Source: a virus. From it: a DNA stretch of 39,046 nt. The position numbers were made by a program, and so were the translations under genes. Position 1 is the stretch's first letter. The number at the start of each line of letters is the position of its first letter. Where the stretch lies: positions 1-39,046 of the IMG/VR virus record IMGVR_UViG_3300042549_010698; one strand, 5' to 3'. Shown here piece by piece: positions 11,597-25,615 of the stretch. Under the pieces are notes generated by a model. That model was not told the origin of the DNA. It saw only the letters and a program-made list of their open reading frames with translations, and made no database searches.

Positions 11597-11614
11597 AAAT
11601 ATTTCATTTTTTGG

Positions 11615-11903: not shown

Positions 11904-11920
11904 TAGAAATTTTTAAGAGT

Positions 11921-11928: not shown

Positions 11929-11934
11929 AAAAAT

Positions 11935-12654: not shown

Positions 12655-12663
12655 ATGATTTTA

Positions 12664-13251: not shown

Positions 13252-13260
13252 ATGATGATA

Positions 13261-14199: not shown

Positions 14200-14207
14200 A
14201 GTGAATA

Positions 14208-14215
14208 TATTTATA
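14208..14215 (-). promoter_or_regulatory. late promoter TATAAATA (minus strand)
   Basis: Perfect octamer on the minus strand, 8 bases before the ATG of the WcbI-like gene. Confidence 0.65.
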
Positions 14216-14233
14216 AATCTATGAAAATAGTAG

Positions 14234-14262
14234 TTTACAAACGTCATAAATTATAGTAGTAT
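14234..14262 (+). promoter_or_regulatory. sigma70-like promoter for the dNMP kinase
   Basis: TTTACA, 17-bp spacer, TAGTAT, 8 bases before the ATG at 14271. It is divergent from and close to the late octamer at 14208. Confidence 0.65.
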
Positions 14263-14270
14263 TAACGCAT

Positions 14271-15418: not shown

Positions 15419-15506
15419 GCTGATCCTGGAGCAGAGGGCCCAGCCCGGGGCCAGTCAATGACAGGCTTGGAGCCGAGAAAAAAATGAAAAAAAATGAAAA
15501 AAGATA

Positions 15507-15535
15507 TGTACTTTTCCCCTCCTTTATGGTAAGAT
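15507..15535 (+). promoter_or_regulatory. sigma70-like promoter of RNA unit A
   Basis: TGTACT, 17-bp spacer, TAAGAT with TGG before the -10. It precedes two hairpins (15561-15580 region) and the permuted tRNA-like element. Confidence 0.6.
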
Positions 15536-15587
15536 CTCCTTGCCGCTGAAAAGCAGCAGATCTTAGAGAGAGTCTAAGAGATTGAAT

Positions 15588-15676
15588 CAACTTAAAGTAA
15601 GACGATGGTTCGAATCCATCCCCAGCCGCGCACGCTGGCTAGGTAGTTTATAAGAGGTAAAACATACTTTAAGTTG
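15588..15676 (+). ncRNA. circularly permuted tRNA-like RNA
   Basis: A 12-bp perfect terminal stem (CAACTTAAAGTA, 15588-15599, with TACTTTAAGTTG, 15665-15676) encloses tRNA parts in permuted order. First come a variable AGAC and a canonical T arm GATGG-TTCGAAT-CCATC (15604-15620), then 3' acceptor strand CCCAGCC, a 9-base linker, 5' acceptor strand GGCTAGG (6 of 7 pairs), T8-A9, a D arm GTTT-ATAAGAGGTA-AAAC with G18G19 and A14/A21, and A26. The enclosing stem takes the place of the anticodon arm, so the RNA ends lie where the anticodon should be. No CCA is encoded. Anticodon identity cannot be assigned. Confidence 0.55.
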
Positions 15677-15697
15677 AAAAAAAGTTTCACTTTTTTG

Positions 15698-15726
15698 TTT
15701 ACAATCTCTCAAATTCTTGGTAAGAT
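15698..15726 (+). promoter_or_regulatory. sigma70-like promoter of RNA unit B
   Basis: TTTACA, 17-bp spacer, TAAGAT with TGG; upstream TTTCACTTTTTTG tract. Confidence 0.65.
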
Positions 15727-15739
15727 CTCCTCATCAAAG

Positions 15740-15813
15740 AGATTAAGAATTTTGGCGCTATTGGTTTAAACGCTACCAAACGTTTCAATAGATGAATGCG
15801 AAATTCTTAATCT
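15740..15813 (+). ncRNA. unclassified structured RNA B
   Basis: A 13-bp terminal stem (AGATTAAGAATTT with AAATTCTTAATCT) encloses an internal hairpin (CTATTG with CAATAG, and GTTT with AAAC inside). The 48-base interior is too short to be a tRNA. It follows its own promoter; no long reading frame is present. Confidence 0.5.
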
Positions 15814-15840
15814 TCAGATGAAAAAAAAATCACTTTTTTG

Positions 15841-15868
15841 TTTACTTTTGAAAAAAAGTTGATAAAAT
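15841..15868 (+). promoter_or_regulatory. sigma70-like promoter of RNA unit C
   Basis: TTTACT, 16-bp spacer, TAAAAT, preceded by CACTTTTTTG. Confidence 0.5.
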
Positions 15869-15874
15869 AAGCAA

Positions 15875-16005
15875 TGTAAGACATAAATAACTATCCGATA
15901 GGTTCATGACGAGGGAGCACCTGAAGCGCCCAAGCGAGCACAATTAGGTGTCACTATAAACGAAAGTTTATAGGTAGTGTATAAAAATATTTTCTATGTC
16001 TTACA
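15875..16005 (+). ncRNA. unclassified structured RNA C
   Basis: An 11-bp terminal stem (TGTAAGACATA with TATGTCTTACA) closes a multibranch structure with three hairpins: CTAT-CCG-ATAG, CACCT...AGGTG (with CGC/GCG inside) and CACTATAAAC-GAAA-GTTTATAGgTAGTG. The last has a GNRA-type tetraloop and is a convincing RNA stem. It starts 6 bases after a -10 box. Not a known class to me. Confidence 0.55.
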
Positions 16006-16128
16006 AAAACTATGATGTATAAAGGACAAGCCAAGTCCCATCAGAAACAATCGTCAGTTAGTCATTGGCTGATATTTCATCGATTAAGATGAGGTTGTGG
16101 TAAAAGCCCACACAGTGTATTTTCAAAT
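16006..16128 (+). other. intergenic RNA-like segment before the tRNA array
   Basis: No reading frame or tRNA is seen. Local hairpins are possible (GGAC/GTCC at about 16023, TGTGG-TAAAAG-CCACA near 16096-16112), so it may be a further small RNA or a leader of the array transcript. Confidence 0.3.
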
Positions 16129-16203
16129 AGGCCGTTCGTTCAACGGATAGGACTGAGACCTTCTAAGTCTCCAATGAGTGTTCGATTCACTCACGGCCTA
16201 CCA
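16129..16203 (+). tRNA. tRNA-Arg(UCU)
   Basis: Complete cloverleaf: acceptor AGGCCGT/ACGGCCT, anticodon loop CTTCTAA, T loop TTCGATT, encoded CCA. Confidence 0.93.
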
Positions 16204-16211
16204 AATTTAGC

Positions 16212-16260
16212 GTTAGGTGTAGCCACCTCGGAAGATGACTGTGATACCGTTACAGTTAAC
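16212..16260 (+). other. small two-hairpin RNA between tRNAs
   Basis: GTTA...TAAC encloses GGTG-TAGC-CACC and ACTGT-GATACCGTT-ACAGT. It occupies a tRNA-sized slot between Arg and Glu genes with the same TTTTCAA-type spacers, but has no T arm or CCA. Confidence 0.35.
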
Positions 16261-16271
16261 AATTTTCAAAT

Positions 16272-16346
16272 GCTGCCATCGTCTATCGGTTAGGACAAAT
16301 GGTTTTCAACCATTAGAGCGGGGTTCAACTCCCCGTGGCAGTACCA
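16272..16346 (+). tRNA. tRNA-Glu(UUC)
   Basis: Acceptor GCTGCCA/TGGCAGT, anticodon loop TTTTCAA, T arm CGGGG-TTCAACT-CCCCG, encoded CCA. Confidence 0.93.
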
Positions 16347-16358
16347 ATTTTCTTAATA

Positions 16359-16436
16359 TCCTATTGTAGCTCAGTTGGTCAGAGCACTCGGTTGATAACC
16401 GATAGGTCGCAGGTTCAAATCCTGCCAGTAGGACCA
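16359..16436 (+). tRNA. tRNA-Ile(GAU)
   Basis: Acceptor CCTATTG/CAGTAGG, D arm GCTC...GAGC, anticodon loop TTGATAA, T arm GCAGG-TTCAAAT-CCTGC, encoded CCA. The outermost anticodon-stem pair is a C-U mismatch. Confidence 0.92.
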
Positions 16437-16447
16437 AATTTTTCAAT

Positions 16448-16536
16448 GTACGTGAGGCTACTGTTGGTTGTGTGGCGGCAGACTGTAACCCTGCTCATCA
16501 GAAACACCGTTGGTTCGATTCCAACCGCGTACACCA
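16448..16536 (+). tRNA. tRNA-Tyr(GUA)
   Basis: Acceptor GTACGTG/CGCGTAC, anticodon loop CTGTAAC and a long variable region, as expected for bacterial class II tRNA-Tyr. CCA encoded. Confidence 0.92.
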
Positions 16537-16546
16537 ATTTCAAAAA

Positions 16547-16621
16547 GCACCGTTAGTGTAATGGATAACACGCAAGGCTACGGACTTTGTAATAGAGGTT
16601 CAAGTCCTCTGCGGTGCACCA
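16547..16621 (+). tRNA. tRNA-Arg(ACG)
   Basis: Acceptor GCACCGT/GCGGTGC, anticodon loop CTACGGA. A34 would need deamination to inosine by the host TadA to read all CGU/C/A codons. Confidence 0.92.
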
Positions 16622-16631
16622 ATTTTAATAT

Positions 16632-16706
16632 CGGTATGAAGCTTTAATGGTGAAGCGGCTGTCTGAAGAACAGCATAAGACGATTCAAGCGCGTCCATAC
16701 CGGCCA
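16632..16706 (+). tRNA. tRNA-Phe(GAA)
   Basis: Acceptor CGGTATG/CATACCG, anticodon loop CTGAAGA in a 5-bp stem GCTGT/ACAGC. The inner T-stem pair is an A-G mismatch. CCA encoded. Confidence 0.9.
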
Positions 16707-16715
16707 ATTTTCAAT

Positions 16716-16789
16716 CGCGGGGTAGAGTAGCGGCAACTCAACGGTCTCATAAGCCGTGCACGTGGGTTCGAATCCCACCTCCGCAACCA
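16716..16789 (+). tRNA. initiator-type tRNA-fMet(CAU)
   Basis: The 5' end CGCGGGG opposite CTCCGCA leaves position C1 unpaired with A72, the hallmark of bacterial initiator tRNA that allows formylation. Anticodon loop CTCATAA. The usual three G-C pairs below the anticodon loop are only partly kept (GGT/GCC), which may weaken P-site selectivity. Confidence 0.85.
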
Positions 16790-16796
16790 ATTTCTT

Positions 16797-16871
16797 GGGG
16801 ATGTAGCTCAGAGGAAGAGCGCTAGCCTGTCACGCTAGAGGTCGCGATATCGTAATTCGTCATTCCCGCCA
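16797..16871 (+). tRNA. tRNA-Asp(GUC) with swapped T-loop pair
   Basis: Acceptor GGGGATG/CATTCCC, anticodon loop CTGTCAC, G73, encoded CCA. The T loop reads ATCGTAA, with A54 and U58 exchanged relative to the normal U54-A58. Confidence 0.88.
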
Positions 16872-16879
16872 AATTTTAA

Positions 16880-16972
16880 GGAACGTTGACAGAGTCTGGT
16901 ATTGTGCCGTCCTGCTAAGACGTGGCCAACCCTATAAAGGTTGCATTGGTTCAAATCCAATACGTTCCGCCA
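16880..16972 (+). tRNA. tRNA-Ser(GCU)
   Basis: Acceptor GGAACGT/ACGTTCC, anticodon loop CTGCTAA, long variable arm with AACC-CTATAAA-GGTT, G73 and CCA. Confidence 0.92.
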
Positions 16973-16982
16973 TTTTTTAATA

Positions 16983-17057
16983 CGGATAAAGGCCGACTGG
17001 TGAGGCACTTGCTTTGGGAGCAAGCATAGTTGAGTTCGATTCTCAATTATCCGACCA
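16983..17057 (+). tRNA. tRNA-Pro(UGG)
   Basis: Acceptor CGGATAA/TTATCCG (C1-G72 as in bacterial Pro tRNA), anticodon loop TTTGGGA, T loop TTCGATT, encoded CCA. Confidence 0.92.
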
Positions 17058-17069
17058 ATTTCAAAACAT

Positions 17070-17143
17070 GCGTTGATCGTCTAGTGGCAAGACCTTGGTC
17101 TCCAAAACCAAAGACGTGGGTTCGATTCCTACTCAACGTGCCA
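17070..17143 (+). tRNA. tRNA-Trp(CCA), first copy
   Basis: Acceptor GCGTTGA/TCAACGT, anticodon arm TTGGT-CTCCAAA-ACCAA, G73, encoded CCA. Confidence 0.92.
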
Positions 17144-17145
17144 AA

Positions 17146-17221
17146 CGAGGCGAAGCTTTGATGGCTGAAGCAATCGGTTCTTACCCGATAGAAGCCGGCT
17201 CGAGTCCGGACGCCTTGACCA
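17146..17221 (+). tRNA. tRNA-Lys(CUU)
   Basis: Acceptor CGAGGCG/CGCCTTG, anticodon arm ATCGG-TTCTTAC-CCGAT. The T loop is CTCGAGT (C54). It begins 2 bases after the Trp gene. Confidence 0.88.
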
Positions 17222-17237
17222 TTTTTCAATAAACAAT

Positions 17238-17312
17238 GGGTGCTAAGCTTTAATGGTGAAGCAACGGGCTTTTAACTCGTAGAACTGGGATCGTTACCCA
17301 GAGCACCTACCA
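17238..17312 (+). tRNA. tRNA-Lys(UUU) with swapped T-loop pair
   Basis: Acceptor GGGTGCT/AGCACCT, anticodon loop CTTTTAA, T arm CTGGG-ATCGTTA-CCCAG with A54/U58 in a fully paired stem. Confidence 0.9.
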
Positions 17313-17320
17313 ATTTCAAC

Positions 17321-17395
17321 AGGACTTTCGTATAACGGTTATTACTCTCGGCTTTGACCCGATAGATAGATGTTCAATTCATCTAGGTCCTACCA
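17321..17395 (+). tRNA. tRNA-Gln(UUG)
   Basis: Acceptor AGGACTT/AGGTCCT, anticodon loop CTTTGAC, T arm AGATG-TTCAATT-CATCT, encoded CCA. Confidence 0.91.
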
Positions 17396-17404
17396 ATTTT
17401 CAAA

Positions 17405-17495
17405 TCCCAGCGACCCGAGCAGGCGAACGGGCGTGGCTGTTAACCACTGCACCATGAATAATGGAGGCTAGGATCGTTACCTAGGCTGGGAGCCA
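17405..17495 (+). tRNA. tRNA-Asn(GUU) with a class II-like variable arm
   Basis: Acceptor TCCCAGC/GCTGGGA with G73 as in bacterial Asn tRNA; anticodon loop CTGTTAA. Unlike normal Asn tRNA it has a long variable arm (CACCAT-GAATA-ATGGAG). T arm CTAGG-ATCGTTA-CCTAG again carries A54/U58. Confidence 0.85.
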
Positions 17496-17504
17496 TTTTT
17501 AAAA

Positions 17505-17578
17505 GCGCTATAAGTGTTACGGCAGCACGTGATCCTTCCAAGTTCGAGGCGTGGGTTCGACTCCCACATAGCGTACCA
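17505..17578 (+). tRNA. tRNA-Gly(UCC), first copy
   Basis: Acceptor GCGCTAT/ATAGCGT, D arm GTGT-TACGGCA-GCAC, anticodon loop CTTCCAA, T arm GTGGG-TTCGACT-CCCAC, encoded CCA. One T-T mismatch in the anticodon stem. Confidence 0.88.
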
Positions 17579-17581
17579 ATT

Positions 17582-17740
17582 TTGACACAGACGGTCTAGC
17601 TGATGTAATTTACGAGACCATAAGAGAGGGTGATTGCGAGTGCGAATGCGTAGTAAGTCTTTTGACCGAAACAAAACAATATCTCGACAAGACCGGATAC
17701 TTGAACAAATTTCTGCCTCTCAAACTTCGGCGTGTGTCAA
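17582..17740 (+). ncRNA. unclassified structured RNA D
   Basis: A terminal stem TTGACACA/TGTGTCAA encloses GGTCT...AGACC, GAGAGG...CCTCTC and smaller elements over 159 bases. It breaks the tRNA array and contains no tRNA arm, CCA or long reading frame. Not a class I recognise. Confidence 0.45.
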
Positions 17741-17762
17741 CTCAATTATCCTAAACGGGCTC

Positions 17763-17848
17763 ATGAAACATAGGGACGGGCTCTTCCACTAGCGTAATGG
17801 CTAAAGCTTTCGGGCGAAGAGTATGTATATCTTGCAGAAGTGTTTCAT
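17763..17848 (+). ncRNA. unclassified structured RNA E
   Basis: A terminal stem ATGAAACA/TGTTTCAT encloses a rod-like fold: ACATA/TATGT, CTCTTC/GAAGAG and TAGC/GCTA. The D-loop-like GTAATGG is similar to neighbouring tRNAs, so a decayed tRNA is possible, but no T arm is present. The stretch from here to 17953 shows only a CTAAAG/CTTTAG hairpin (17889-17914). Confidence 0.45.
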
Positions 17849-17953
17849 TTTATTAACCTTAAACAACTACGTTAACTTAAAACGATACTAAAGATTGCGA
17901 AGTGCATGACTTTAGAGAGTGACGGCGGGAGAGAACGACCAACAATTTTCAAT

Positions 17954-18033
17954 GCTCCTATAGCTCAGTCGTGGTCAGAGCACCCGCCTTATAAGTGGGA
18001 GGTCGTGGGTTCAATCCCCCACTAGGAGTACCA
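17954..18033 (+). tRNA. tRNA-Ile(UAU)
   Basis: Acceptor GCTCCTA/TAGGAGT, anticodon arm CCCGC-CTTATAA-GTGGG, CCA encoded. Reads AUA directly with UAU rather than lysidine-modified CAU. The T loop appears to be 8 nt (TTCAATCC) to keep GTGGG/CCCAC paired. Confidence 0.87.
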
Positions 18034-18043
18034 AATTTTCAAT

Positions 18044-18080
18044 GCGCTTGTAGCTCAGTGGTAGAGCAAGGGTCTATGAT
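18044..18080 (+). pseudogene. 5' half of a tRNA, interrupted by a homing-endonuclease gene
   Basis: GCGCTTG-TA-GCTC-AGTGGTA-GAGC-A-AGGGT-CTATGAT is a perfect 5' acceptor strand, D arm and 5' anticodon stem, ending within the anticodon loop where the GIY-YIG gene begins. No matching 3' half with T arm and CCA is found downstream. At 18760-18773 the strings ACCCT and CAAGCG would pair with its stems, but there is no T arm between them. Confidence 0.7.
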
Positions 18081-18083
18081 TTG

Positions 18084-18091
18084 TATAAATA
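18084..18091 (+). promoter_or_regulatory. late promoter TATAAATA before the GIY-YIG gene
   Basis: Perfect octamer 5 bases before the ATG at 18097, inside the disrupted tRNA anticodon region. Confidence 0.6.
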
Positions 18092-18096
18092 TCTTT

Positions 18097-18624
18097 ATGT
18101 TATACACAATCTATAAAATTACCAATAATCTTAATGGAAAGATATATATTGGTAAGCACCAAACATTAGATGCAAATGATTCTTATTACGGTTCTGGTAA
18201 AGCAATAGTAAATGCCATTAAAAAACATGGCAAAGAAAATTTTACTAAGGAAATATTATTCATATTCCAGACTGAAGAAGAAATGAATAATAAAGAAAAG
18301 GAATTAATTACCGAAGAATTTGTATTACGCGAAGATACATATAACTTGGGTGTTGGCGGCGAAGGCGGAGCTCATTTTAAAGGAAAGAAGCATACCATTG
18401 AGGTTCGTAAAAAAATAGCTGAGGCTAATGCGAGTCGTGACAATTCATCATTAAAAGGAAAAATACCATGGAATAAAGGTCATAGAAAAAATCCTAATTC
18501 ATTAGATATGCCTAAAATACCTTGTAAAAGAAAGCGTAATCCTCTTAGTGAAGCAACGAAACAAAAACTTAGAGAAAAACAATTCGAACGTTGGAAAAGA
18601 CAGAAAGAAACTAATAAATTTTAA
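18097..18624 (+). CDS. GIY-YIG homing endonuclease (SegA-like), 175 aa
   Basis: The N-terminal YTIYKITNNLNGKIYIGKHQ contains the spaced Y-I-Y and Y-I-G elements of the GIY-YIG nuclease. A DNA-binding part follows with NUMOD3-like repeats: HFKGKKHTIEVRKKIAEAN (about residues 88-106) and a second copy around LSEATKQKLREKQFE. This is the layout of T4 Seg endonucleases, which cut and copy themselves into related phages and often sit in or next to tRNA genes. I use the ATG at 18097 just after a TATAAATA box; an in-frame ATG at 18076 is within the tRNA loop. It has invaded a tRNA anticodon loop. Confidence 0.9.
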   Translation: MLYTIYKITNNLNGKIYIGKHQTLDANDSYYGSGKAIVNAIKKHGKENFTKEILFIFQTEEEMNNKEKELITEEFVLREDTYNLGVGGEGGAHFKGKKHTIEVRKKIAEANASRDNSSLKGKIPWNKGHRKNPNSLDMPKIPCKRKRNPLSEATKQKLREKQFERWKRQKETNKF

Positions 18625-18626
18625 AT

Positions 18627-18734
18627 ACGCCTGAAGCTTAACGGTCAAGCAGTGGTCTCTTTCGAGCCTTCACGGAAATGAGAAGGCTTAAAATAAACCA
18701 TTGAAAGCAGGTTCAACTCCTGTCGGGCGTACCA
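18627..18734 (+). tRNA. tRNA with a 33-nt insertion in the anticodon loop
   Basis: Acceptor ACGCCTG/CGGGCGT, D arm GCTT-AACGGTC-AAGC, T arm GCAGG-TTCAACT-CCTGT and encoded CCA are all normal. The anticodon stem GTGGT/ACCAT holds a 40-base loop containing a hairpin AGCCTTC...GAAGGCT. Removing 33 bases leaves either CTCATAA (Met) or CTCTTAA (Lys). It starts 2 bases after the endonuclease stop codon. Confidence 0.75.
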
Positions 18735-18744
18735 ATTTCTTGAA

Positions 18745-18878
18745 ACATTAACACGCCACACCCTGATCAAGCGACGTGGTGATTATAGATAGACATACAA
18801 TGTAGAAGGTTCGATTCCTTGACTCTGGTGAGGTCTGTGTAGTATGGAATGGATCGTGAAATCCTATAGTGTTAATGT
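18745..18878 (+). ncRNA. unclassified structured RNA F with an internal T arm
   Basis: A 10-bp terminal stem (ACATTAACAC/GTGTTAATGT) encloses a T-arm-like AAGG-TTCGATT-CCTT (18807-18821 area), a hairpin GGAT-CGTGAA-ATCC and CCAC...GTGG. The T arm inside a long terminal stem recalls the permuted tRNA-like element at 15588, but I cannot complete an acceptor and D arm with confidence. Confidence 0.45.
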
Positions 18879-18885
18879 ATAAATA
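18878..18885 (+). promoter_or_regulatory. late promoter octamer upstream of tRNA-Ala
   Basis: Perfect TATAAATA directly after RNA F and 10 bases before tRNA-Ala; it could allow late transcription of the distal tRNA genes. Confidence 0.4.
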
Positions 18886-18895
18886 ATTTTTTAAT

Positions 18896-18971
18896 GGGGC
18901 TATGGCGCAATTGGTAGCGCAGATCCTTTGCAAGGATAAGGTTCTCGGTTCAAATCCGAGTAGCTCCACCA
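18896..18971 (+). tRNA. tRNA-Ala(UGC)
   Basis: Acceptor GGGGCTA/TAGCTCC, D arm GCGC-AATTGGTA-GCGC, anticodon loop TTTGCAA, A73, encoded CCA. The G3-U70 Ala identity pair is present (third pair G-T). Confidence 0.92.
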
Positions 18972-18981
18972 AATTTCAATC

Positions 18982-19056
18982 CCCGCTGTAGCTTATATGG
19001 TAAAGTCTACGCTTGTGACGCGTACTAACTCGGTTCGATCCCGAGCAGCTGGACCA
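18982..19056 (+). tRNA. tRNA-His(GUG)
   Basis: Acceptor CCCGCTG/CAGCTGG (one mismatch), anticodon arm TACGC-TTGTGAC-GCGTA, T arm CTCGG-TTCGATC-CCGAG. The base before position 1 is C rather than the G-1 usual for bacterial tRNA-His. Confidence 0.87.
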
Positions 19057-19063
19057 ACTTTTG

Positions 19064-19071
19064 TATAAATA
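19064..19071 (+). promoter_or_regulatory. late promoter TATAAATA
   Basis: Perfect octamer 5 bases before the ATG at 19077. Confidence 0.7.
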
Positions 19072-19076
19072 AGAAC

Positions 19077-19277
19077 ATGAAGAAAGACTCCTTGGAGAAT
19101 ATTGCATTACGCGTTTTAACAGAATCAAAACCGAAATCGTGGCATCAGTTGGATTCAGCTACGCAAAAAAAATTAACTACAGTTTATGCGATGTATAGCC
19201 TAGGAAATTTGCAAGCTGAAAGCCAAAAACTGAAAGATGCAATTGCTGAAATTTATCAGCTTGGCCTTTCACAATAA
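19077..19277 (+). CDS. putative capsid-targeted internal protein, 66 aa
   Basis: The N-terminal helix MKKDSLENIALRVLTE ends in LTE|S (14-17), matching the T4 prohead protease (gp21) consensus (L/I)xE|(A/G/S). Six other small genes in the tRNA region have the same N-terminal design. The remaining about 50 residues (KPKSWHQLDSATQKKLTTVY...) would form a small helical domain. It lies between tRNA-His and tRNA-Gly and has its own late promoter. By analogy to T4 internal proteins it would be packed in the head and possibly injected; this is inference, and no sequence similarity beyond the leader is claimed. Confidence 0.65.
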   Translation: MKKDSLENIALRVLTESKPKSWHQLDSATQKKLTTVYAMYSLGNLQAESQKLKDAIAEIYQLGLSQ

Positions 19278-19279
19278 AC

Positions 19280-19353
19280 GCGCTAATAATTTAATGGTAA
19301 AATGTCTGTCTTCCAAGCAGAATTCCTGAGTTAGATTCTCAGTTAGCGTACCA
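19280..19353 (+). tRNA. tRNA-Gly(UCC), second copy
   Basis: Acceptor GCGCTAA/TTAGCGT, anticodon arm TCTGT-CTTCCAA-GCAGA. The T loop TTAGATT has A56 instead of C56, so the G19-C56 tertiary pair is lost; the D stem ATTT/AAAT is weak. Begins 2 bases after a CDS stop. Confidence 0.85.
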
Positions 19354-19492
19354 ATTTAACAACTCTGTAATTCCGTAACATAGTATAGATGATAATGCGC
19401 CCGAAAGGGAGAAGGTGCTTAGACCACATGAGGAAAAAAGAATTCAGAATTTCGGTGATCTGAATTAAAAGAAAACGCCGTACACTTTCAAT
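19354..19492 (+). other. spacer with hairpin, no gene seen
   Basis: About 140 bases between tRNA genes. The clearest element is a hairpin AATTCAGA...TCTGAATT (19441-19466). No reading frame or tRNA arm is recognisable. Confidence 0.35.
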
Positions 19493-19577
19493 GCTGAAGT
19501 AGCCAAGTGGTCGACGGCACTATCCTTGTAAGATAGTAAGAAAAACATCGTGGGTTCGAATCCCACCTTCAGCTCCA
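19493..19577 (+). tRNA. tRNA-Thr(UGU) with class II-like features
   Basis: Acceptor GCTGAAG/CTTCAGC, anticodon arm CTATC-CTTGTAA-GATAG, T arm GTGGG-TTCGAAT-CCCAC, CCA encoded. The D arm (GCCAAGTGGTCGACGGC) and the roughly 13-base variable region resemble Ser/Leu-type tRNAs, and position 73 is U instead of A. Confidence 0.85.
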
Positions 19578-19597
19578 ATTTTTTTTAATAGAATTAT

Positions 19598-19673
19598 ACG
19601 GAGGCATGTCCCAAGGTCGGCGAACGAGACTCCAAATCTTGTTGGGTGAGTGCAACTCTCACTCTCCGTGCCA
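19598..19673 (+). tRNA. divergent second tRNA-Trp(CCA)
   Basis: Acceptor ACGGAGG/TCTCCGT, anticodon arm CGAGA-CTCCAAA-TCTTG, T arm GTGAG-TGCAACT-CTCAC (G55 replaces the near-universal U55), G73 and CCA. The D arm is irregular with a large loop. Confidence 0.78.
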
Positions 19674-19686
19674 AAATTTCAAATCT

Positions 19687-19694
19687 TATAAATA
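19687..19694 (+). promoter_or_regulatory. late promoter TATAAATA
   Basis: Perfect octamer 8 bases before the ATG at 19703. Confidence 0.7.
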
Positions 19695-19702
19695 AAGATA
19701 AC

Positions 19703-20080
19703 ATGAAAGAACAAACATTACTAGAAGCAGCAACTGATATTTTACTTAATAAATCGTCATTAACTGAAGCAAAAGATCCAAAAGCTAAACTCTTTGGTCT
19801 TTTTGCAAAAAGTTTTGGTGGTGATGCATATATTCTTTATGCAATTGGTAACTTTATTCCTAATGATAAAGGCAATCTTAGCAGCGATGATTATAAAACA
19901 TTATGGGCTATAGCCCAGAAAAGGGGTGCAAGTCGTGGAAACGATTGGCATGATAGTCCACAAAATATGGAGCTTAAACCAAGTAAAGTCAAAGAATATA
20001 TTGAAAAATATAAAAAAGAAGTAGAACTTAAAACATCTTTGATAAAGGATTTCGAGAAACAGCTTAAAGCTGCACAATAA
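19703..20080 (+). CDS. putative capsid-targeted internal protein, 125 aa
   Basis: The leader MKEQTLLEAATDILLNKSSL ends at LTE|A (20-23), a perfect prohead-protease-type site. The same TLLEAATD(I/M)LLN phrase recurs in the gene at 24311, so the leaders are homologous. The start is fixed by the TATAAATA box; an upstream in-frame ATG at 19646 lies inside a tRNA gene. The body (KLFGLFAKSFGGDAYILYAI... then a C-terminal coiled-coil-like EYIEKYKKEVELKTSL) is unknown to me. Predicted to be packaged; inference. Confidence 0.7.
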   Translation: MKEQTLLEAATDILLNKSSLTEAKDPKAKLFGLFAKSFGGDAYILYAIGNFIPNDKGNLSSDDYKTLWAIAQKRGASRGNDWHDSPQNMELKPSKVKEYIEKYKKEVELKTSLIKDFEKQLKAAQ

Positions 20081-20101
20081 ATCTTAATAAGAATTTTTAA
20101 T

Positions 20102-20134
20102 AGAAAGAGGCTGCATCTTGCAGCCTCTTTCTTT
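20102..20134 (+). terminator. strong intrinsic terminator
   Basis: AGAAAGAGGCTGCA pairs with TGCAGCCTCTTTCT over 14 bp around TCT, followed by TT. It ends the late transcript of the 125-aa gene. Confidence 0.85.
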
Positions 20135-20147
20135 ATGCACCAATTTT

Positions 20148-20190
20148 GCGAGAGGGTGTCTAAACCGCTTGATCCGTCGGTTGAACTTGC
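20148..20190 (+). other. nested hairpin in a tRNA-like slot
   Basis: GCGAG/CTTGC encloses AACCG/CGGTT. It follows a CACCAATTTT-type spacer as the tRNAs do, but has no T arm or CCA. Confidence 0.3.
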
Positions 20191-20236
20191 ATGTCAATAT
20201 CTCCAAAGTGTTGATGTCAACTGATCTTCAAATTTT

Positions 20237-20244
20237 TATAAATA
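20237..20244 (+). promoter_or_regulatory. late promoter TATAAATA
   Basis: Perfect octamer 5 bases before the ATG at 20250. Confidence 0.7.
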
Positions 20245-20249
20245 ACGTT

Positions 20250-20759
20250 ATGAAACGCGATATTATATCTGAAGCAAAAGCCTTGTTAGCTGAGCTTAAT
20301 GAAGAAGTGACTAAAGTTGGTCATGTTGTTTATCATTGCTCTCCAAAGGCAATTAGTTCTTTAACTCATAAACCATTATGGTTTGCATTGGAAAAAGATC
20401 ATGCAATTGATGGTTGGTTTCAAAATACTCTTGAAAATAATGATTCTGCCTTTCTTTATAGCGCAACTCTTGATAAGCCAGTGAGTCACATCTATGATGA
20501 TAATATCACTTCATTATTTGATGAGATCGGTGTAGATTCCAATGACTGGGTTGAAATGATTATTGGCAATCCTTCTGCCGAAGAAGTACTTAACGATGCT
20601 GGAACAAAAGCATTGATTGCAGCTGGACATATCGGACTTGTTTATAGCGATTATGATCCACGCGATTTTCAAAAAGATCTTGATGCGCTTGTAGTATTTG
20701 ATGCTGCAAAGCATGTAAAAAACTGGAAACTAATAAAACAACTTTGGATTCCAGGTTAA
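20250..20759 (+). CDS. putative capsid-targeted protein with ADP-ribosyltransferase-like features, 169 aa
   Basis: The leader MKRDIISEAKALLAELNEE has candidate protease sites ISE|A (6-9) and LNE|E. The body begins VGHVVYHCSPKAISSL and continues KPLWFALEKDHAIDGW (about 43-58), which resembles the first strands of ADP-ribosyltransferase (ART)-fold enzymes (Y-H-x-S/T, then a W/Y-F-A/S strand). The ending DALVVFDAAKHVKNWKLIKQ fits the last strand of such folds. T4 packages the ART Alt and injects it to modify host RNA polymerase, so a packaged ART would be a functional parallel. The catalytic triad cannot be fixed by eye, so the ART assignment is tentative. Start chosen by the late promoter. Confidence 0.6.
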   Translation: MKRDIISEAKALLAELNEEVTKVGHVVYHCSPKAISSLTHKPLWFALEKDHAIDGWFQNTLENNDSAFLYSATLDKPVSHIYDDNITSLFDEIGVDSNDWVEMIIGNPSAEEVLNDAGTKALIAAGHIGLVYSDYDPRDFQKDLDALVVFDAAKHVKNWKLIKQLWIPG

Positions 20760-20859
20760 TGAGCTTCTGAGGATCGTCGATGACCAATGCTGCTTTGTGG
20801 ACGAGCTCGCTTTACACGCAAGATACGAAAGAGCATTACCTTCATCGGCTACTAAATTT

Positions 20860-20867
20860 TATAAATA
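20860..20867 (+). promoter_or_regulatory. late promoter TATAAATA
   Basis: Perfect octamer 5 bases before the ATG at 20873. The upstream 100 bases (20760-20859) show no gene. Confidence 0.7.
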
Positions 20868-20872
20868 GAAAT

Positions 20873-21142
20873 ATGACAGATAAAAACAATTTAATCACCG
20901 CAGCAAAGGCCTTACTTGAAGGAAAAGTCCTTAATGAAAAAGTTTCTGGATTTAATCATCCAGATGTTACAGAAAACATGCTTGATGCAATTAGTGAGTT
21001 TGATGCAGAAGATGTAGAACGATTGCTACAATGGATGATTGAAGCATGGAGCGATACTGGCTATGAGAACTCTGACACAAGAAAGCTTATTTCAAACTTA
21101 AAGACTACACACCGAATCTGGAAAAACCGTAGCGGTAACTAA
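20873..21142 (+). CDS. putative capsid-targeted internal protein, 89 aa
   Basis: The leader MTDKNNLITAAKALLEGKVL carries LLE|G (14-17) and LNE|K. The body is a small helical domain (TENMLDAISEFDAEDVERLL, then QWMIEAW) ending in a basic tail. An upstream ATG at 20780 in frame precedes the late promoter and is not favoured. It ends 1 base before the next capsid-targeted gene, so the two share a transcript. Confidence 0.65.
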   Translation: MTDKNNLITAAKALLEGKVLNEKVSGFNHPDVTENMLDAISEFDAEDVERLLQWMIEAWSDTGYENSDTRKLISNLKTTHRIWKNRSGN

Positions 21143-21143
21143 T

Positions 21144-21398
21144 ATGAAAACACAAAGTTTATTAGAAGCGGCACGTCATATTCTTGAAGGATCTGAAAAG
21201 GATCCAGGAGAATATGATTATGAAGGCAGCATGGCAAAAAATGCACTTCGTACAATTATTCGCAATGCAAAGGGTTTGCATGATATGCTAGCCGATGATG
21301 AAAATTTACCAGAGCATGTACAAGCAGCAATAGTAAAAGCTGAAGAAGCGATTGTTGGTGCTCGTGATTATATTGAAAGCGAAAAAGAACTAGAATAA
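21144..21398 (+). CDS. conserved myovirus protein with capsid-targeting leader, 84 aa
   Basis: The leader MKTQSLLEAARHILEG contains ILE|G (13-16). The body NALRTIIRNAKGLHDMLADD, then LPEHVQAAIVKAEEAIVGAR is familiar: many T4-like and marine phages encode a short helical protein with a LPEWVQ-KI-KAE core. Its function has not been established to my knowledge. Here that core is joined to the same leader as the neighbouring late genes, which suggests it is a virion or core component. Confidence 0.7.
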   Translation: MKTQSLLEAARHILEGSEKDPGEYDYEGSMAKNALRTIIRNAKGLHDMLADDENLPEHVQAAIVKAEEAIVGARDYIESEKELE

Positions 21399-21408
21399 AT
21401 TTTAAAAA

Positions 21409-21492
21409 GCGCAGGTGGTGGAATGGTATACACGGCAGTCTTAGAAGCTGTTGCCGCGAGGCTTGTGGGTTCGAGTCCCACCCTGCGCACCA
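21409..21492 (+). tRNA. tRNA-Leu(UAG)
   Basis: Acceptor GCGCAGG/CCTGCGC, anticodon loop CTTAGAA, long variable arm, T arm GTGGG-TTCGAGT-CCCAC, A73, encoded CCA. Confidence 0.93.
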
Positions 21493-21497
21493 AATAT

Positions 21498-21586
21498 GGA
21501 AGTCGCCCGGATGGACGAGGACACTGTCTTGAAAACAGCTGGGGCCTATAAAGCCCTCGTGGGTTCGAACCCCACGGCTTCCGCCA
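21498..21586 (+). tRNA. tRNA-Ser(UGA)
   Basis: Acceptor GGAAGTC/GGCTTCC, anticodon loop CTTGAAA, long variable arm GGGGC...GCCC, T arm GTGGG-TTCGAAC-CCCAC, G73, encoded CCA. Confidence 0.93.
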
Positions 21587-21597
21587 AATTTCATAAT

Positions 21598-21673
21598 GCG
21601 CGATTAGCTCAATTGGTAGAGCATATCCTTTACACGGATGAGGTCGGCGGTTCGAGCCCGTCATCGCGTACCA
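21598..21673 (+). tRNA. tRNA-Val(UAC)
   Basis: Acceptor GCGCGAT/ATCGCGT, D arm GCTC-AATTGGTA-GAGC, anticodon loop TTTACAC, encoded CCA. Confidence 0.92.
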
Positions 21674-21676
21674 TTT

Positions 21677-21684
21677 TATAAATA
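21677..21684 (+). promoter_or_regulatory. late promoter TATAAATA
   Basis: Perfect octamer 5 bases before the ATG at 21690, starting 4 bases after tRNA-Val. Confidence 0.7.
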
Positions 21685-21689
21685 GAAAC

Positions 21690-22058
21690 ATGATCTCACT
21701 CTTCGAAAAAGCAGAAAAGCTAATTAGCGATGTTCTATTTCCAGCATTTGTCCGCAAGCGCTATGAAGCTGCAAAGAAACTGGCTGATACAAGTGAAGAT
21801 CGAGGCAAATTTGCCATATTAAGTTTTTATCATTTTGGTGCAAAGCTTAAGCCATATTTGAATGCTAAACGCTGGGAAAAGAAAGACACCGAAACTCGTT
21901 GTGATCTTTTCAAAGAGCGTTATAAAAAAGCTTATGCAAAACTAAAAAATCTTGACAGTTTAAGTCAAAAAGAATTTCAAAGCTTGACTGGCATACTTGA
22001 AGCCTATGGCGAAGTATATCTGCAAAGCAAAAAACCAAAAGACTATTCAAAAGAATAG
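21690..22058 (+). CDS. late basic helical protein, 122 aa
   Basis: Preceded by a late promoter like its neighbours. The N-terminus MISLFEKAEKLISDVLFPAF is amphipathic but lacks a clear xxE|A site. The rest is helical and lysine/arginine-rich (VRKRYEAAKKL, KERYKKAYAKLKNL), suggesting a nucleic-acid-associated or structural protein. It lies between tRNA-Val and tRNA-Cys. No family recognised. Confidence 0.65.
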   Translation: MISLFEKAEKLISDVLFPAFVRKRYEAAKKLADTSEDRGKFAILSFYHFGAKLKPYLNAKRWEKKDTETRCDLFKERYKKAYAKLKNLDSLSQKEFQSLTGILEAYGEVYLQSKKPKDYSKE

Positions 22059-22061
22059 AAT

Positions 22062-22136
22062 GCTCTGATGGGGGAATGGCTACTCGGAGGATTGCAACCC
22101 CTCTTTATGTCGGTTCGAATCCGGCTCAGAGCTCCA
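22062..22136 (+). tRNA. tRNA-Cys(GCA)
   Basis: Acceptor GCTCTGA/TCAGAGC, anticodon arm GAGGA-TTGCAAC-CCCTC and U73, a key Cys identity base. T loop TTCGAAT. It begins 3 bases after a CDS stop. Confidence 0.88.
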
Positions 22137-22138
22137 AA

Positions 22139-22213
22139 GCCACCGTAGTTCAGAGGCAGAACGCGCTGCTCATAACGGCGAGGTCGGGATATCGTAATTC
22201 CCCGGTGGCACCA
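22139..22213 (+). tRNA. elongator tRNA-Met(CAU) with swapped T-loop pair
   Basis: Acceptor GCCACCG/CGGTGGC (fully paired, so not an initiator), anticodon arm CGCTG-CTCATAA-CGGCG. T loop ATCGTAA with A54/U58. It could be Ile2 if C34 were lysidinylated, but a tRNA-Ile(UAU) already exists. Confidence 0.85.
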
Positions 22214-22243
22214 ATTTTAAAAGACATAGAAAATATTTTTATA

Positions 22244-23068
22244 CTAAAATTTAAATTTAGTAATGGGCACATCTCTTAACCATGATGCACTATCACTAAA
22301 GCCTGATCCCCAGCTATGATAGTCATTGGTGAATTGATAGATATGCTGTGAATATTGTATCATAAACCAATCAACAAGCATATCTTGGCTATTACTGTTA
22401 GCATGCATACTATGTGAAGGAATGGTTTCTGTATAGCTTATCTTGTGTTGCTTTTTAAGCAATTCCTTTAGCTTCATGCTATCACTAAACACAAAGATTT
22501 TTCTGCCAACCGCTTGAGACTTTACCTCTTTTATGCTATCGCTAATTTTTTCAGCTAGCTCTTCGGTCGCATTATCATTTTCGGAAAATCCAACCCAATC
22601 ACCTGTGCGTATATGAATACTCACATAATCATTTTTTCGTTGATTTCGAGCGATGATTTTTTCTAGTTGTTCATTGGGCATCATCTGAGATCTCACATAT
22701 TCTTTGCAGTCTTCGGAGAGAGGATAATCTGGAAAACTATTACATAGCATGACATATCTGTGATGAACAGTTGGATTTTGATTTGGATTTTGATTTACTT
22801 TCCAAAAGTGGCGATTGATATATTTTTTTAAATTAGGTTTCCCATAAAGATTAAAGTTTCGGAACAGTTCATCAGGTCTATTGCCTGTTGGAACTTCATG
22901 CCCTACTAAATATTTTCCAATAGCATGATTTGAAAGATCCATACGAAATTGCAAATTCATTTCTTTTGCCGCTTGATAGAGAGCCAAACTGCCTCTAATA
23001 TAGTCACCGAATCCACAACCGCAATTTCCGGGTAAATTTTCTGTATGAGTGAATGCATTAATTAACAT
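22244..23068 (-). CDS. fucosyltransferase-like glycosyltransferase (GT11/GT23 superfamily), 274 aa
   Basis: VSIHIRTGDW (150-158 region) matches the HxRxxD-type peptide motif I of alpha-1,2/alpha-1,6-fucosyltransferases, which binds GDP-fucose. KIFVFSDSMK corresponds to the following strand motif, and the C-terminal DMLVDWFMIQYSQHIYQFTN, then SGFSDSASWL is the D-x2-L-x10-S-x-F-x4-A pattern of the same group. N-terminal CGCGFGDYIRGSLALY fits the first strand and helix. It is on the minus strand with its own late octamer and a convergent position to the tRNA array. It likely transfers a deoxy-hexose to a phage or host glycan. Confidence 0.75.
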   Translation of the reverse strand: MLINAFTHTENLPGNCGCGFGDYIRGSLALYQAAKEMNLQFRMDLSNHAIGKYLVGHEVPTGNRPDELFRNFNLYGKPNLKKYINRHFWKVNQNPNQNPTVHHRYVMLCNSFPDYPLSEDCKEYVRSQMMPNEQLEKIIARNQRKNDYVSIHIRTGDWVGFSENDNATEELAEKISDSIKEVKSQAVGRKIFVFSDSMKLKELLKKQHKISYTETIPSHSMHANSNSQDMLVDWFMIQYSQHIYQFTNDYHSWGSGFSDSASWLRDVPITKFKF

Positions 23069-23075
23069 ATATTTT

Positions 23076-23083
23076 TATTTATA
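23076..23083 (-). promoter_or_regulatory. late promoter TATAAATA (minus strand)
   Basis: Perfect octamer on the minus strand, 7 bases before the glycosyltransferase ATG. Confidence 0.65.
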
Positions 23084-23165
23084 ATATGATTAAGAGTATT
23101 AGATTTGCTACTCCTCGATAACAAATAAAAACTTTAAAGTCTCGTCAGACTAAAACAATAAAAAA

Positions 23166-23173
23166 TATAAATA
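23166..23173 (+). promoter_or_regulatory. late promoter TATAAATA
   Basis: Perfect octamer 9 bases before the ATG at 23183, divergent from the one at 23076. Confidence 0.7.
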
Positions 23174-23182
23174 CTATTACAT

Positions 23183-23938
23183 ATGCAAGACTTAATCAAA
23201 ACAGCAACAGCGTTTCTTCTGAATGAAGATGCGCCAAAACAAGTAGTAGAAGCAGAAGAAAATAATTCTGATCTTTTTGTTTGGACTAAAAAAGGTAAAC
23301 ATAACTATGCGAACTTTCTAAAAGCAAATGCTAATCGCGTTGGCAAACCAATGCTTGACGGTGGAATTAAAGCTAATGCCAAAGAAGAATACACTAAGCG
23401 TAATGGCAAGCCAGTTGAAGGCATGATCTATTGTGGTGAGGGCTGTGTAATCTATAAAAACAAGCGCGACGGCGATTTAGTCTTTGCAAAAATTCCTGAA
23501 GGTCTGGTCAATACTGATGACGGCTCTGGCCAGGGCTGGTCTGGATATAAACACTATAATGATAGTGGCAGTAACACTGATGCACGAGTAACCACAGAAA
23601 ATGCACTACAATTCAAAGAATTTGCAAAAGCAATGGTTGTAGCAGCTAAAAACATTTCAAAAGCAGATTTGGTTGAAGATGCAGCACCAGCTCTAACTGA
23701 GGCCAAGATGAATAACACACAAAACGTAGTCAAAAAGATCACGGATATATTTGACTTTCTTGATGAATTAGTTATGATGAAGAACTCAAGACTTGAAAAA
23801 GCAATGGGTCCTGAGACTAAACAATATGCGACCGAGCTCAAAGAACTTAAAGGTCATTTGATCGCTGCTGAAAAAATATTTCTTTTCGATATTGCTCAAC
23901 CTTTAGATCTTGCCACCATCTTTGACATACCAGATTAA
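23183..23938 (+). CDS. putative capsid-targeted internal protein, 251 aa
   Basis: The leader MQDLIKTATAFLLNEDAPKQ ends at VVE|A (21-24). A second site, LTE|A (171-174), lies in a DAAPALTEAK linker, so cleavage could release two domains: residues about 24-170 (with EGMIYCGEGCVIYKNK and GSGQGWSGYKHY) and a helical C-terminal domain (175-251). Neither domain is recognised. It is the largest member of the leader-bearing late family and is immediately upstream of the tmRNA gene (4 bases). Confidence 0.65.
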   Translation: MQDLIKTATAFLLNEDAPKQVVEAEENNSDLFVWTKKGKHNYANFLKANANRVGKPMLDGGIKANAKEEYTKRNGKPVEGMIYCGEGCVIYKNKRDGDLVFAKIPEGLVNTDDGSGQGWSGYKHYNDSGSNTDARVTTENALQFKEFAKAMVVAAKNISKADLVEDAAPALTEAKMNNTQNVVKKITDIFDFLDELVMMKNSRLEKAMGPETKQYATELKELKGHLIAAEKIFLFDIAQPLDLATIFDIPD

Positions 23939-23942
23939 TTTA

Positions 23943-24269
23943 GGGGATATTTTGGTTTCGACGTAACGTTGAGCTGATATGCTGCAACACATGGGCGCCA
24001 TCCCTTCTGGCACAAAAACAAACGGCGAAAATACACTCGCTCTTGCTGCTTAAGTAAGCATGCTTCTAATGACTCCTATATTTAGATAGCATGACGATAT
24101 AGGATAGATTCAAACTCGAATGTTTGATAGGTTGAACACTTGCCGAGAAATAGTGTTCGGGGCAACCGATATCAGCCTAGATCGCTATGGTCGAGACCAC
24201 ATAGCTAAGTTGTAGAAGGCATAAAGGCAGACGTCGCGGACACGGGTTCGACTCCCGTTATCTCCACCA
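23943..24269 (+). ncRNA. ssrA: tmRNA (one-piece ssrA)
   Basis: The 5' end GGGGATATTTTGGTTTCGAC and 3' end GGGTTCGACTCCCG...TATCTCCACCA form the tRNA-like domain (acceptor GGGGATA/TATCTCC with A73 and CCA). The internal reading frame ends NGENTLALAA followed by TAA at 24052-24054, close to the bacterial tag ending ALAA that ClpXP recognises. The length (327 nt) is normal. tmRNA with SmpB rescues ribosomes stalled on broken mRNAs; no smpB gene is seen in this window, so host SmpB would be needed. Confidence 0.93.
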
Positions 24270-24294
24270 TTTTTATAATTAAGATTAATAAAAG

Positions 24295-24302
24295 TATAAA
24301 TA
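24295..24302 (+). promoter_or_regulatory. late promoter TATAAATA
   Basis: Perfect octamer 8 bases before the ATG at 24311. Confidence 0.7.
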
Positions 24303-24310
24303 AGAATAGC

Positions 24311-24817
24311 ATGAAAAATAAAACATTACTAGAAGCTGCAACTGATATGTTGCTTAACCGTCCAGAATCAGTTGTAGCTGAAGCAGCACCTGCCGTCAAC
24401 TGGGAAAAGCTTGGAGCAAAGGATCTTTTTGATACTATTAGAAAAGCAACATTGGCTCTTTATCATAATTTTTATGATAGTGATATGAATAAATCATTTG
24501 ATGAATTTGACAGAGGATATAGCGCTTTAATCAGTGCCTTTAAAAAAGCTGGATTATATGAAGCTTCTGAGTCAGAAGAAGATGATGAGCAGCATGATCT
24601 TGAAGAAGCCACAGAAGTTGATAACATCGCAGCAAAGGTTGCAGAGCTTGACATTCACGATATTACCAACTTTGGTGTTGTAGTTGCCTTAGGAGGCAAT
24701 AGTGTTACCTTTAAAGCTAAAGATCTTCCAAAGACAACGATCACCTTTAACAAACGAAAAATCGGCAGTAGAGACTATGTTCTTAGCGATCTTCGTCTAA
24801 TTAAAAAGGCTAAATAA
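24311..24817 (+). CDS. putative capsid-targeted internal protein, 168 aa
   Basis: The leader MKNKTLLEAATDMLLNRPES ends at VAE|A (22-25) and is nearly identical in its first 16 residues to that of the 19703 gene. The middle contains FDTIRKATLALYHNFYDSDM (helical) and an acidic linker SESEEDDEQHDLEEA (about 86-100), then a beta-rich C-terminal domain (NFGVVVALGGNSVTFKAKD). The domain order leader, helix, acidic linker, beta domain suggests a modular packaged protein. Function unknown. Confidence 0.7.
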   Translation: MKNKTLLEAATDMLLNRPESVVAEAAPAVNWEKLGAKDLFDTIRKATLALYHNFYDSDMNKSFDEFDRGYSALISAFKKAGLYEASESEEDDEQHDLEEATEVDNIAAKVAELDIHDITNFGVVVALGGNSVTFKAKDLPKTTITFNKRKIGSRDYVLSDLRLIKKAK

Positions 24818-24820
24818 TAT

Positions 24821-25615
24821 ATGAAAGAGCTATTAGACAAACAAATCGAAAGATATAGAGTCGAAGTAAAATTTTTACGTCGACGTACATCTAGTAGTGT
24901 ATCTGCTATTGTTGCTGATACTCTTGAAGGTGTTATTGCTAATCTTGGGGCTCTTGTAACCGAGATTAAGCGCACTGAAAAAGCAGAAGAAAAAGAGACT
25001 AAAGCAAATTCTTCAATTAGTTTGACTGATGCTGCTAGCAAAATCCTAAGAGGTGATAGTCTTGAAGAAGCTCCTGGAGGTTTAGAGGCTTCTGCAGAAA
25101 AAAGCAAATTTGGAGGATATAGAGCTCGCGTAACACGTGGTTCATCAATTGTATTTTTAAGCCAAGAATCTTGGGAAGAAGAAAGCGATGCTGTTGAAGC
25201 TGCACAATATTATATTGATGAAGTTCGACCTATCTATAATACAAGAGCTCGCGATGGCAAATGGTTTAATTATGTTAAAAGCTCTAAAGTTAAATCTGAA
25301 TCTTCTGAACTTGAAGAGGATAGCTCTGAATTCGAAGATTACGAAGACTATAAAGTAGGCACAACCTATAATAGCAATCCTCGTGGTTATCGTCCAACTG
25401 TCTATGAAGATGACAAAGAAGTATTTTCAACAGTCTTTGTTTGGAAAGATCAAGATGATGCAATTGCCGCAGCAAAAGAAATCGTTGATAAAAAGTTCTT
25501 TGAAAAAGTTAAAGATGGCCCGGAATTTGGCCTAATGCGCTTTGTACTTGATGCTTTGAAAAAAGGTGAGCTTACGCACAACAACGAAAAATATTTAAAA
25601 AGTCTTATGCAATAA
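24821..25615 (+). CDS. two-repeat protein with an internal capsid-targeting-like segment, 264 aa
   Basis: The N-terminal 60 residues form a basic coiled-coil-like helix. Residues 66-83 (ISLTDAASKILRGDSLEE) repeat the leader pattern of the neighbouring late proteins, followed by a LEE|A site. Two similar beta-alpha domains follow: KFGGYRARVTRGSSIVFLSQ with a downstream EAAQYYID helix (about 96-135), and NPRGYRPTVYEDDKEVFSTV with IAAAKEIV (about 183-225). They are joined by a Ser/Glu-rich linker. It begins 3 bases after the 24311 gene and is followed by a terminator. Probably a virion-associated protein. Confidence 0.65.
   Translation: MKELLDKQIERYRVEVKFLRRRTSSSVSAIVADTLEGVIANLGALVTEIKRTEKAEEKETKANSSISLTDAASKILRGDSLEEAPGGLEASAEKSKFGGYRARVTRGSSIVFLSQESWEEESDAVEAAQYYIDEVRPIYNTRARDGKWFNYVKSSKVKSESSELEEDSSEFEDYEDYKVGTTYNSNPRGYRPTVYEDDKEVFSTVFVWKDQDDAIAAAKEIVDKKFFEKVKDGPEFGLMRFVLDALKKGELTHNNEKYLKSLMQ

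Follow-up and report, generated by a model that had tools for sequence, protein, structure and literature searches.

Putative packaged cargo genes with a shared leader and prohead-protease junctions in the tRNA array of a T4-superfamily phage

What do late genes have in common when they share a short N-terminal leader on unrelated bodies and lie among transfer RNA (tRNA) genes? A 39,046-base IMG/VR virus fragment (IMGVR_UViG_3300042549_010698, called the window below) raises this question with seven such genes, named here by their first base: 19077, 19703, 20250, 20873, 21144, 23183 and 24311. In phage T4, internal proteins (IPs) bear capsid targeting sequences (CTSs), reportedly described by Repoila in 1994 and by Mullaney and Black in 1996. 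We propose that these genes of a T4-superfamily phage very probably specify proteins packaged as cargo, in a variant of the T4 internal-protein system. Most likely, the leader is a tag that brings each product into the head of the virus and is afterwards removed.

The genes for gp32, tail tube and baseplate hub place the window in the T4 superfamily, and by gp32 and gp23 the closest phages are of Kyanoviridae type (C48C1, Melnitz and HTVC008M, 54-59% identity). An 82,876-base contig, G001 (IMGVR_UViG_3300042868_013845), matches window positions 8,964-39,046 at 99.9-100% (99.97%) identity and is, on this match, a longer contig of the same virus. It encodes head genes that the window lacks, namely a gp21-type (S77) prohead protease (PF03420, E 9e-44; phrog_207, E 3e-76), gp22 and gp23, plus a gp55-type late sigma factor. 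The G001 gp22 scaffold (L004 10051-11814, minus strand) has about 240 extra N-terminal residues containing xxE↓A sites of their own (↓ marks a predicted cut), and its PHROG scaffold match is restricted to residues 242-582.

A shared leader on unrelated late genes

All seven open reading frames (ORFs) listed in a preliminary description of this DNA were found, each on the plus strand. Six are preceded by the octamer TATAAATA, respectively 5, 8, 5, 5, 9 and 8 nucleotides (nt) from the ATG, as had been stated: 19077-19277 (66 amino acids (aa); octamer 19064-19071; leader MKKDSLENIALRVLTE↓S), 19703-20080 (125 aa; 19687-19694; MKEQTLLEAATDILLNKSSLTE↓A), 20250-20759 (169 aa; 20237-20244; MKRDIISEAKALLAE), 20873-21142 (89 aa; 20860-20867; MTDKNNLITAAKALLEGKVLNE↓K), 23183-23938 (251 aa; 23166-23173; MQDLIKTATAFLLNEDAPKQVVE↓A) and 24311-24817 (168 aa; 24295-24302; MKNKTLLEAATDMLLNRPESVVAE↓A). 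The seventh, 21144-21398 (MKTQSLLEAARHILE↓G), begins one base after the stop codon of 20873 and is the second gene of that unit.

Is the octamer a promoter? The window has 13 instances of TATAAATA-N3-12-ATG where 0.85 would be expected, and 13 was reached in none of 100 shuffles. We read it as the late promoter of the phage because several G001 structural genes carry it immediately ahead of their ATG. Octamers and a gp55-type sigma factor gene are both there, as late expression of the T4 type would require. Spurious ORFs were ruled out as a source of the leader genes by the octamer statistics together with conservation in relatives. From octamer end to ATG, most late genes leave only 4-10 nt (window 8023-24302; G001-G004); the distance is mostly 13-32 nt in T4, mostly 20-29 in C48C1 and often 5 in HTVC008M. 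With a transcription start as in T4, roughly a helical turn away from the box, many of the late mRNAs would have almost no leader or none.

The leader core was described by a 12-column profile and scored against about 1,250 other ORFs: leader genes reach 15-29 bits, other ORFs about 12 or less. When each member is left out in turn, five of the seven window leaders still score 14.5-26.5. The pattern first proposed, MK-x3-LLEAA-x2-(I/M)LL, fits 19703 and 24311 and comes close in 21144, but not the other members, and the common feature is the looser h-h-x-A-A-x-x-h-h. Membership of 19077 is supported by similar leaders in the contig G004 (MNSLENSALACLSES, MDLLKASMAVLSES), by its own octamer and by its LTE↓S site. 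The sequence [N]ATAAATA stands 4-9 nt ahead of almost every leader gene, and any that has no octamer comes directly after another leader gene. The bodies are indeed unrelated, all-against-all BLASTP giving no window-versus-window match of at least 35 aa at E ≤ 1e-3. By profile, the leader was not found in phage C48C1 (1-150 kilobases (kb)), and the TATAAATA-led genes retrieved from Pelagibacter phage HTVC008M and from Melnitz are without such a leader.

Predicted protease sites at leader ends and domain junctions

Do the leaders end where the head protease of this phage would cut? T4 gp21 cleaves behind L/I-x-E, and an IPIII leader with Asp at P1 is not processed (PMC9026906). The apparent sites in G001 are ...EQAQYLTE↓TDVS in gp23 and, in gp21 itself, KFLTE↓G near the start and DFLTE↓I near the end; the proposed comparison of the leaders with the phage's own sites therefore gives agreement (YLTE↓T, FLTE↓G and FLTE↓I). 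A [LIV]xE motif ending at residues 9-35 is found in 24 of 24 distinct leaders versus 89 of 246 control genes (36%; Fisher p 1.7e-10), and one followed by A, G or S in 18 of 24 versus 23 of 246 (p 3e-12). In total, the leaders hold 38 [LIV]xE where 9 are expected, and [LIV]xD is depleted (3 seen, 9.3 expected). Of the leader end first described, (L/I/V)xE followed by A/G/S, the [LIV]xE part stands; the next residue is another one in 20250, at its later sites LAE↓L and LNE↓E, and in 20873 (LNE↓K). The LLEAA leaders contain a further match to the protease motif, LLE↓A at residue 8, where a first cut could fall.

The same motif marks the boundaries of domains. Gene 23183 consists of leader, domain A, a junction ALTE↓A after residue 173 (23701/23702) and domain B; 24311 consists of leader, a junction DLEE↓A after residue 99 and domain D (TNFGVVVALGG...). 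Domain A starts directly after VVE↓A in the window, IAE↓A in G005, INE↓A in G002, LHE↓A in L045, MLE↓A in L043 and LEE↓A in L051, and these six upstream sequences are mostly different. Domain D, in ten contexts, follows DLEE, ELEE, DLDE, ELEE, VLVNE, MLAE, MLTE, EMGE and ELDE (two contigs), and domain E (20873-type), in six, follows LNE, IEE, IDE, LNE, LHE and LSE. Domain B, which in the window comes after domain A and ALTE↓A, has its own leader directly ahead in G003 (L014 12154-11858), ending SITE↓V. For these four cargo domains, [LIVM]xE stands just ahead of the domain in 24 of 24 contexts, close relatives included, behind a leader or another domain alike. Since the motif is found at all of these boundaries, 23183 and 24311 look like polyproteins that gp21 would cut apart inside the prohead. 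This junction rule is independent of the leader profile and is, to our reading of the sequences, the strongest evidence for packaged cargo.

Could the leader be another kind of signal, for membrane, tail or degradation or acting at the RNA level, with xxE motifs incidental to an amphipathic acidic helix? Many kinds of amphipathic helix look similar, the E sites lie partly within the helix, and the targeting is predicted from sequence. Yet P1 is enriched for Glu and not for Asp, the phage's own apparent gp23 and gp21 sites agree with the motif, and the motif also stands at internal domain junctions, where a leader helix is unneeded. We hold this alternative to be very improbable. Chance xxE motifs were likewise rejected, on the Glu/Asp contrast and the coincidence with domain junctions.

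Exchange of modules

Leaders and bodies pass freely between phages, which bears out the earlier claim of modularity in both directions: the same leader heads several bodies, and the same body follows several leaders. The leader MQDLIKTATAFLL or MQDLIKTAKAFLL (MQDLIKTA(T/K)AFLL) is found on four bodies, that of 23183 in the window and three others in G003. At the DNA level, 63 nt of promoter and leader at 19687-19749 (19703) are 86% identical to 24295-24357 (24311), with unrelated bodies behind them, and by this likeness a promoter-leader cassette is duplicated. A cyanophage protein ends in a homologue of the 21144 body, a domain that in Kyanoviridae phages has another N-terminus ahead of it (MKTFKQLREE), and the 20873 body is found again in G003 with different upstream sequence.

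Longer strings occur in marine contigs. The proteins starting at 6891 in L057 (584 aa) and at 962 in L058 (601 aa) are polyproteins of repeated modules with ELDEA, ELEEA and SVNEA junctions, and the first holds [LIVM]xE↓[AGS] 12 times; a search of the cultured-phage collection gave no match to these marine cargo polyproteins. It is fairly probable that widespread uncultured T4-superfamily phages deliver such gene-encoded strings, a leader plus interchangeable domains joined by prohead-protease sites, packaged as one chain and cut in the head into several proteins. In the open-access literature searched, with most subscription papers outside this scope, neither this family of leaders nor any cargo string cut by a prohead protease was found described for T4-superfamily phages.

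Several points weigh against packaged cargo. Packaging and cleavage are predicted here from sequence. The motif [LIVM]xE is short, the profile covers positions near the site, so that the p-values for the sites depend in part on leader selection, and the 24 domain contexts include near-identical pairs from close relatives (window/G003, L062/L063, L057/L058). The E-A at domain A may have descended together with it. Left out of the profile, 20250 (6.7) and 19077 (-0.3, the weakest leader) score poorly, and in T4 (50-150 kb) the profile does not recognise the IP leaders and so gives no support for homology with the T4 CTS. Finally, scans of the window cargo bodies against Pfam, PHROGs, NCBIfam and PADLOC turned up nothing informative, which leaves effector roles to guesswork.

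Effectors or helpers of the head

What could the bodies do? By eye, 20250 has motifs like those of an ADP-ribosyltransferase (VYHCSP.., LWFALEKDHA.., LVVFDAAKHV), a fold that was not confirmed: no match was found in Pfam or in a PDB sequence search, similar motifs appear in L059:1204 only at E 0.49, and the AlphaFold2 model, made from a 2-sequence alignment, has a predicted local distance difference test (pLDDT) score of 41, too poor for a fold search. G003 holds a relative at 94% identity, and a scan of a collection of genome contigs with 20250 found no relative. Domain A of 23183 fared similarly (pLDDT 49 from 6 sequences, too poor for a fold search). In other contigs, L059:460 has a phosphoribosyltransferase domain (E 3.6e-11) behind a T4-like N-terminus, one G004 cargo has a DUF5856/starvation-inducible-type domain (E 5e-8), and L043:2117 has a weak ParB-like match.

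The proteins might be packaged and processed as core or scaffold helpers, in the manner of T4 gp67/gp68 or of IPIII in its morphogenetic role, and not as injected effectors. Within the part of T4 that was searched, the profile matches best (score 9.6) to gp67, which belongs to the prohead core; IPIII mutants have head assembly defects (PMC9026906); and there are modules that are short as well as acidic. Set against this, the repertoire is not constant even among the close relatives G003, G005 and the window, and some cargo of more distant relatives carries the enzyme-like or DNA-binding-like domains just mentioned (phosphoribosyltransferase; DUF5856/starvation-inducible-type). We regard such a helper role as unlikely.

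A variable tRNA locus

The leader rule, suggested as a finder of further members, worked as one: the profile and DNA patterns of octamer, ATG and leader codons recovered leader-bearing late genes in G003 and G005 (close relatives), G004 and L043, and G002 was found through the 23183 body. In these further uncultured phage contigs, the genes again lie mostly amid tRNA and transfer-messenger RNA (tmRNA) genes, G004 having 42 tRNAs and one tmRNA. The window array (16129-24269, plus strand) holds 24 tRNAs and a tmRNA (23943-24269, tag GENTLALAA) with the cargo genes interspersed. A deoxynucleoside monophosphate kinase gene like T4 gene 1 (14271-14831, plus strand) lies upstream of it; the kinase is just ahead of the array in G005 and about 8 kb past its other end in G002. 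In T4, a GIY-YIG endonuclease gene lies within the tRNA cluster, and ipI, 57B, 57A and gene 1 come next in that order. By gene content, the window locus resembles this region, and the mixing with tRNA genes noted earlier takes a known layout to an extreme.

Homing endonucleases belong to the same landscape. The window array contains a GIY-YIG/NUMOD3 gene (18097-18624, plus strand) led by TATAAATA (feature 18084-18624), and arrays in relatives also hold homing-endonuclease-like genes. The region might mainly be a place where selfish cassettes such as homing endonucleases and tRNAs land, the leader genes hitch-hiking without a virion role. The endonuclease genes share both arrays and promoter with the leader genes, and shared promoter/leader DNA could act as recombination homology. 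However, a landing zone leaves conserved protein-level leaders, protease sites and module boundaries unexplained, and the GIY-YIG gene has no leader. As an account of the proteins we find it highly improbable; it may hold for the locus while packaged cargo holds for the proteins.

Other genes of the locus include an eighth TATAAATA-led gene, 21690-22058 (plus strand; octamer 21677-21684), without a recognisable leader and with a weak relative in Flavobacterium phage immuto. Three nt downstream of 24311, gene 24821-25615 (plus strand, 264 aa), conserved in G003, has an internal leader-like stretch SLTDAASKILRGDSLEE↓A at about residues 67-83 with a weak profile score of 9.3. A Glycosyltransferase 11 gene with its own TATAAATA lies inside the array (22247-23068, minus strand), and galactosyltransferase-like (8797-9963) and WcbI-like (13264-14247, minus strand) genes lie elsewhere in the window. 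Phage tmRNAs in arrays of the window and of L010, L026, L045 and L051 differ in their tags (GENTLALAA, AQQQKALIT, AKTQKAKIP, GKNTLALAA, GKNNVVDSGLALAA). L026 10058-10132 and L055 4435-4509 are tRNAs with anticodon CTA (tRNA-Pyl according to ARAGORN), possible amber suppressors, and the tRNA-like window stretch 19594-19673 (anticodon CCA), missed by ARAGORN here, was apparently called in G005 (L029 1227-1302).

A model for packaged cargo

We envision that the cargo genes would be transcribed late by the gp55-type sigma factor from T4-type TATAAATA promoters, both of which are present in the sequence. The amphipathic N-terminal leader would bind the gp22-type prohead core and pull the protein into the assembling head, like a T4 CTS. 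There, the gp21-type protease, whose gene and sites are both found, would cut after [L/I/V]-x-E and free the leader and any fused domains from one another. The mature cargo would remain with the DNA and probably enter the next cell.

Within the variable tRNA locus, promoters, leaders and domains are swapped as cassettes, and such exchange would in turn make for fast turnover of the repertoire. Fast turnover is as expected of anti-defence or take-over proteins. T4 internal proteins inhibit restriction enzymes.

Packaged cargo is hard to find beyond close T4 relatives because the bodies are unrelated. From sequence alone, the leader rule and the protease-site junctions point out proteins of uncultured phages as candidates for packaging and possibly injection, with predicted mature N-termini that can be checked by mass spectrometry. 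They also suggest that a head protease can be used for delivering polyprotein cargo.

Comparison with known systems

How does this system compare with that of T4? IPI, IPII and IPIII with their CTSs are reviewed in PMC3012670, PMC9026906 and PMC12373910. In both systems a short N-terminal propeptide stands on unrelated small bodies and ends in L/I-x-E (TITE↓A in T4 ipI), the repertoire is variable, and a tRNA cluster and gene 1 are neighbours. The systems differ in the leader core, h-h-x-A-A-x-x-h-h here and not recognisably the T4 CTS MKTYQEFIAE, and in that the window has more members, interspersed with tRNAs and a tmRNA, fused multi-domain cargo and, in nearly every unit, an ATG 5-9 nt behind a late octamer. 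As far as sequence can tell, the genes appear to have every other mark of the T4 internal proteins, that likeness of leader excepted. Their set is larger than that of T4 itself (IPI-III and Alt), as the preliminary description held, but at least 10 IPs are reported from T4 relatives (PMC12373910). T4 Alt, a packaged ADP-ribosyltransferase, is also cut by gp21 and invites comparison with the motifs seen by eye in 20250, which has no detectable Alt homology.

Further afield, the prohead protease of the giant phages phiKZ and SPN3US trims several of their packaged head proteins, head ejection proteins among them, by removing N-terminal propeptides (PMC10052503). Those phages are only distantly related, and their propeptides are mostly long (111-254 aa, with two of 20 and 24 aa). 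The polyvalent proteins of phages and conjugative elements are likewise multi-domain, delivered and thought to be processed into functional units (Iyer 2017, PMC5512222). They are thought to use their own fused peptidase domains, and the cargo proteins scanned here had no peptidase match; the predicted cutter in our phage is instead a separate prohead protease, acting at xxE junctions.

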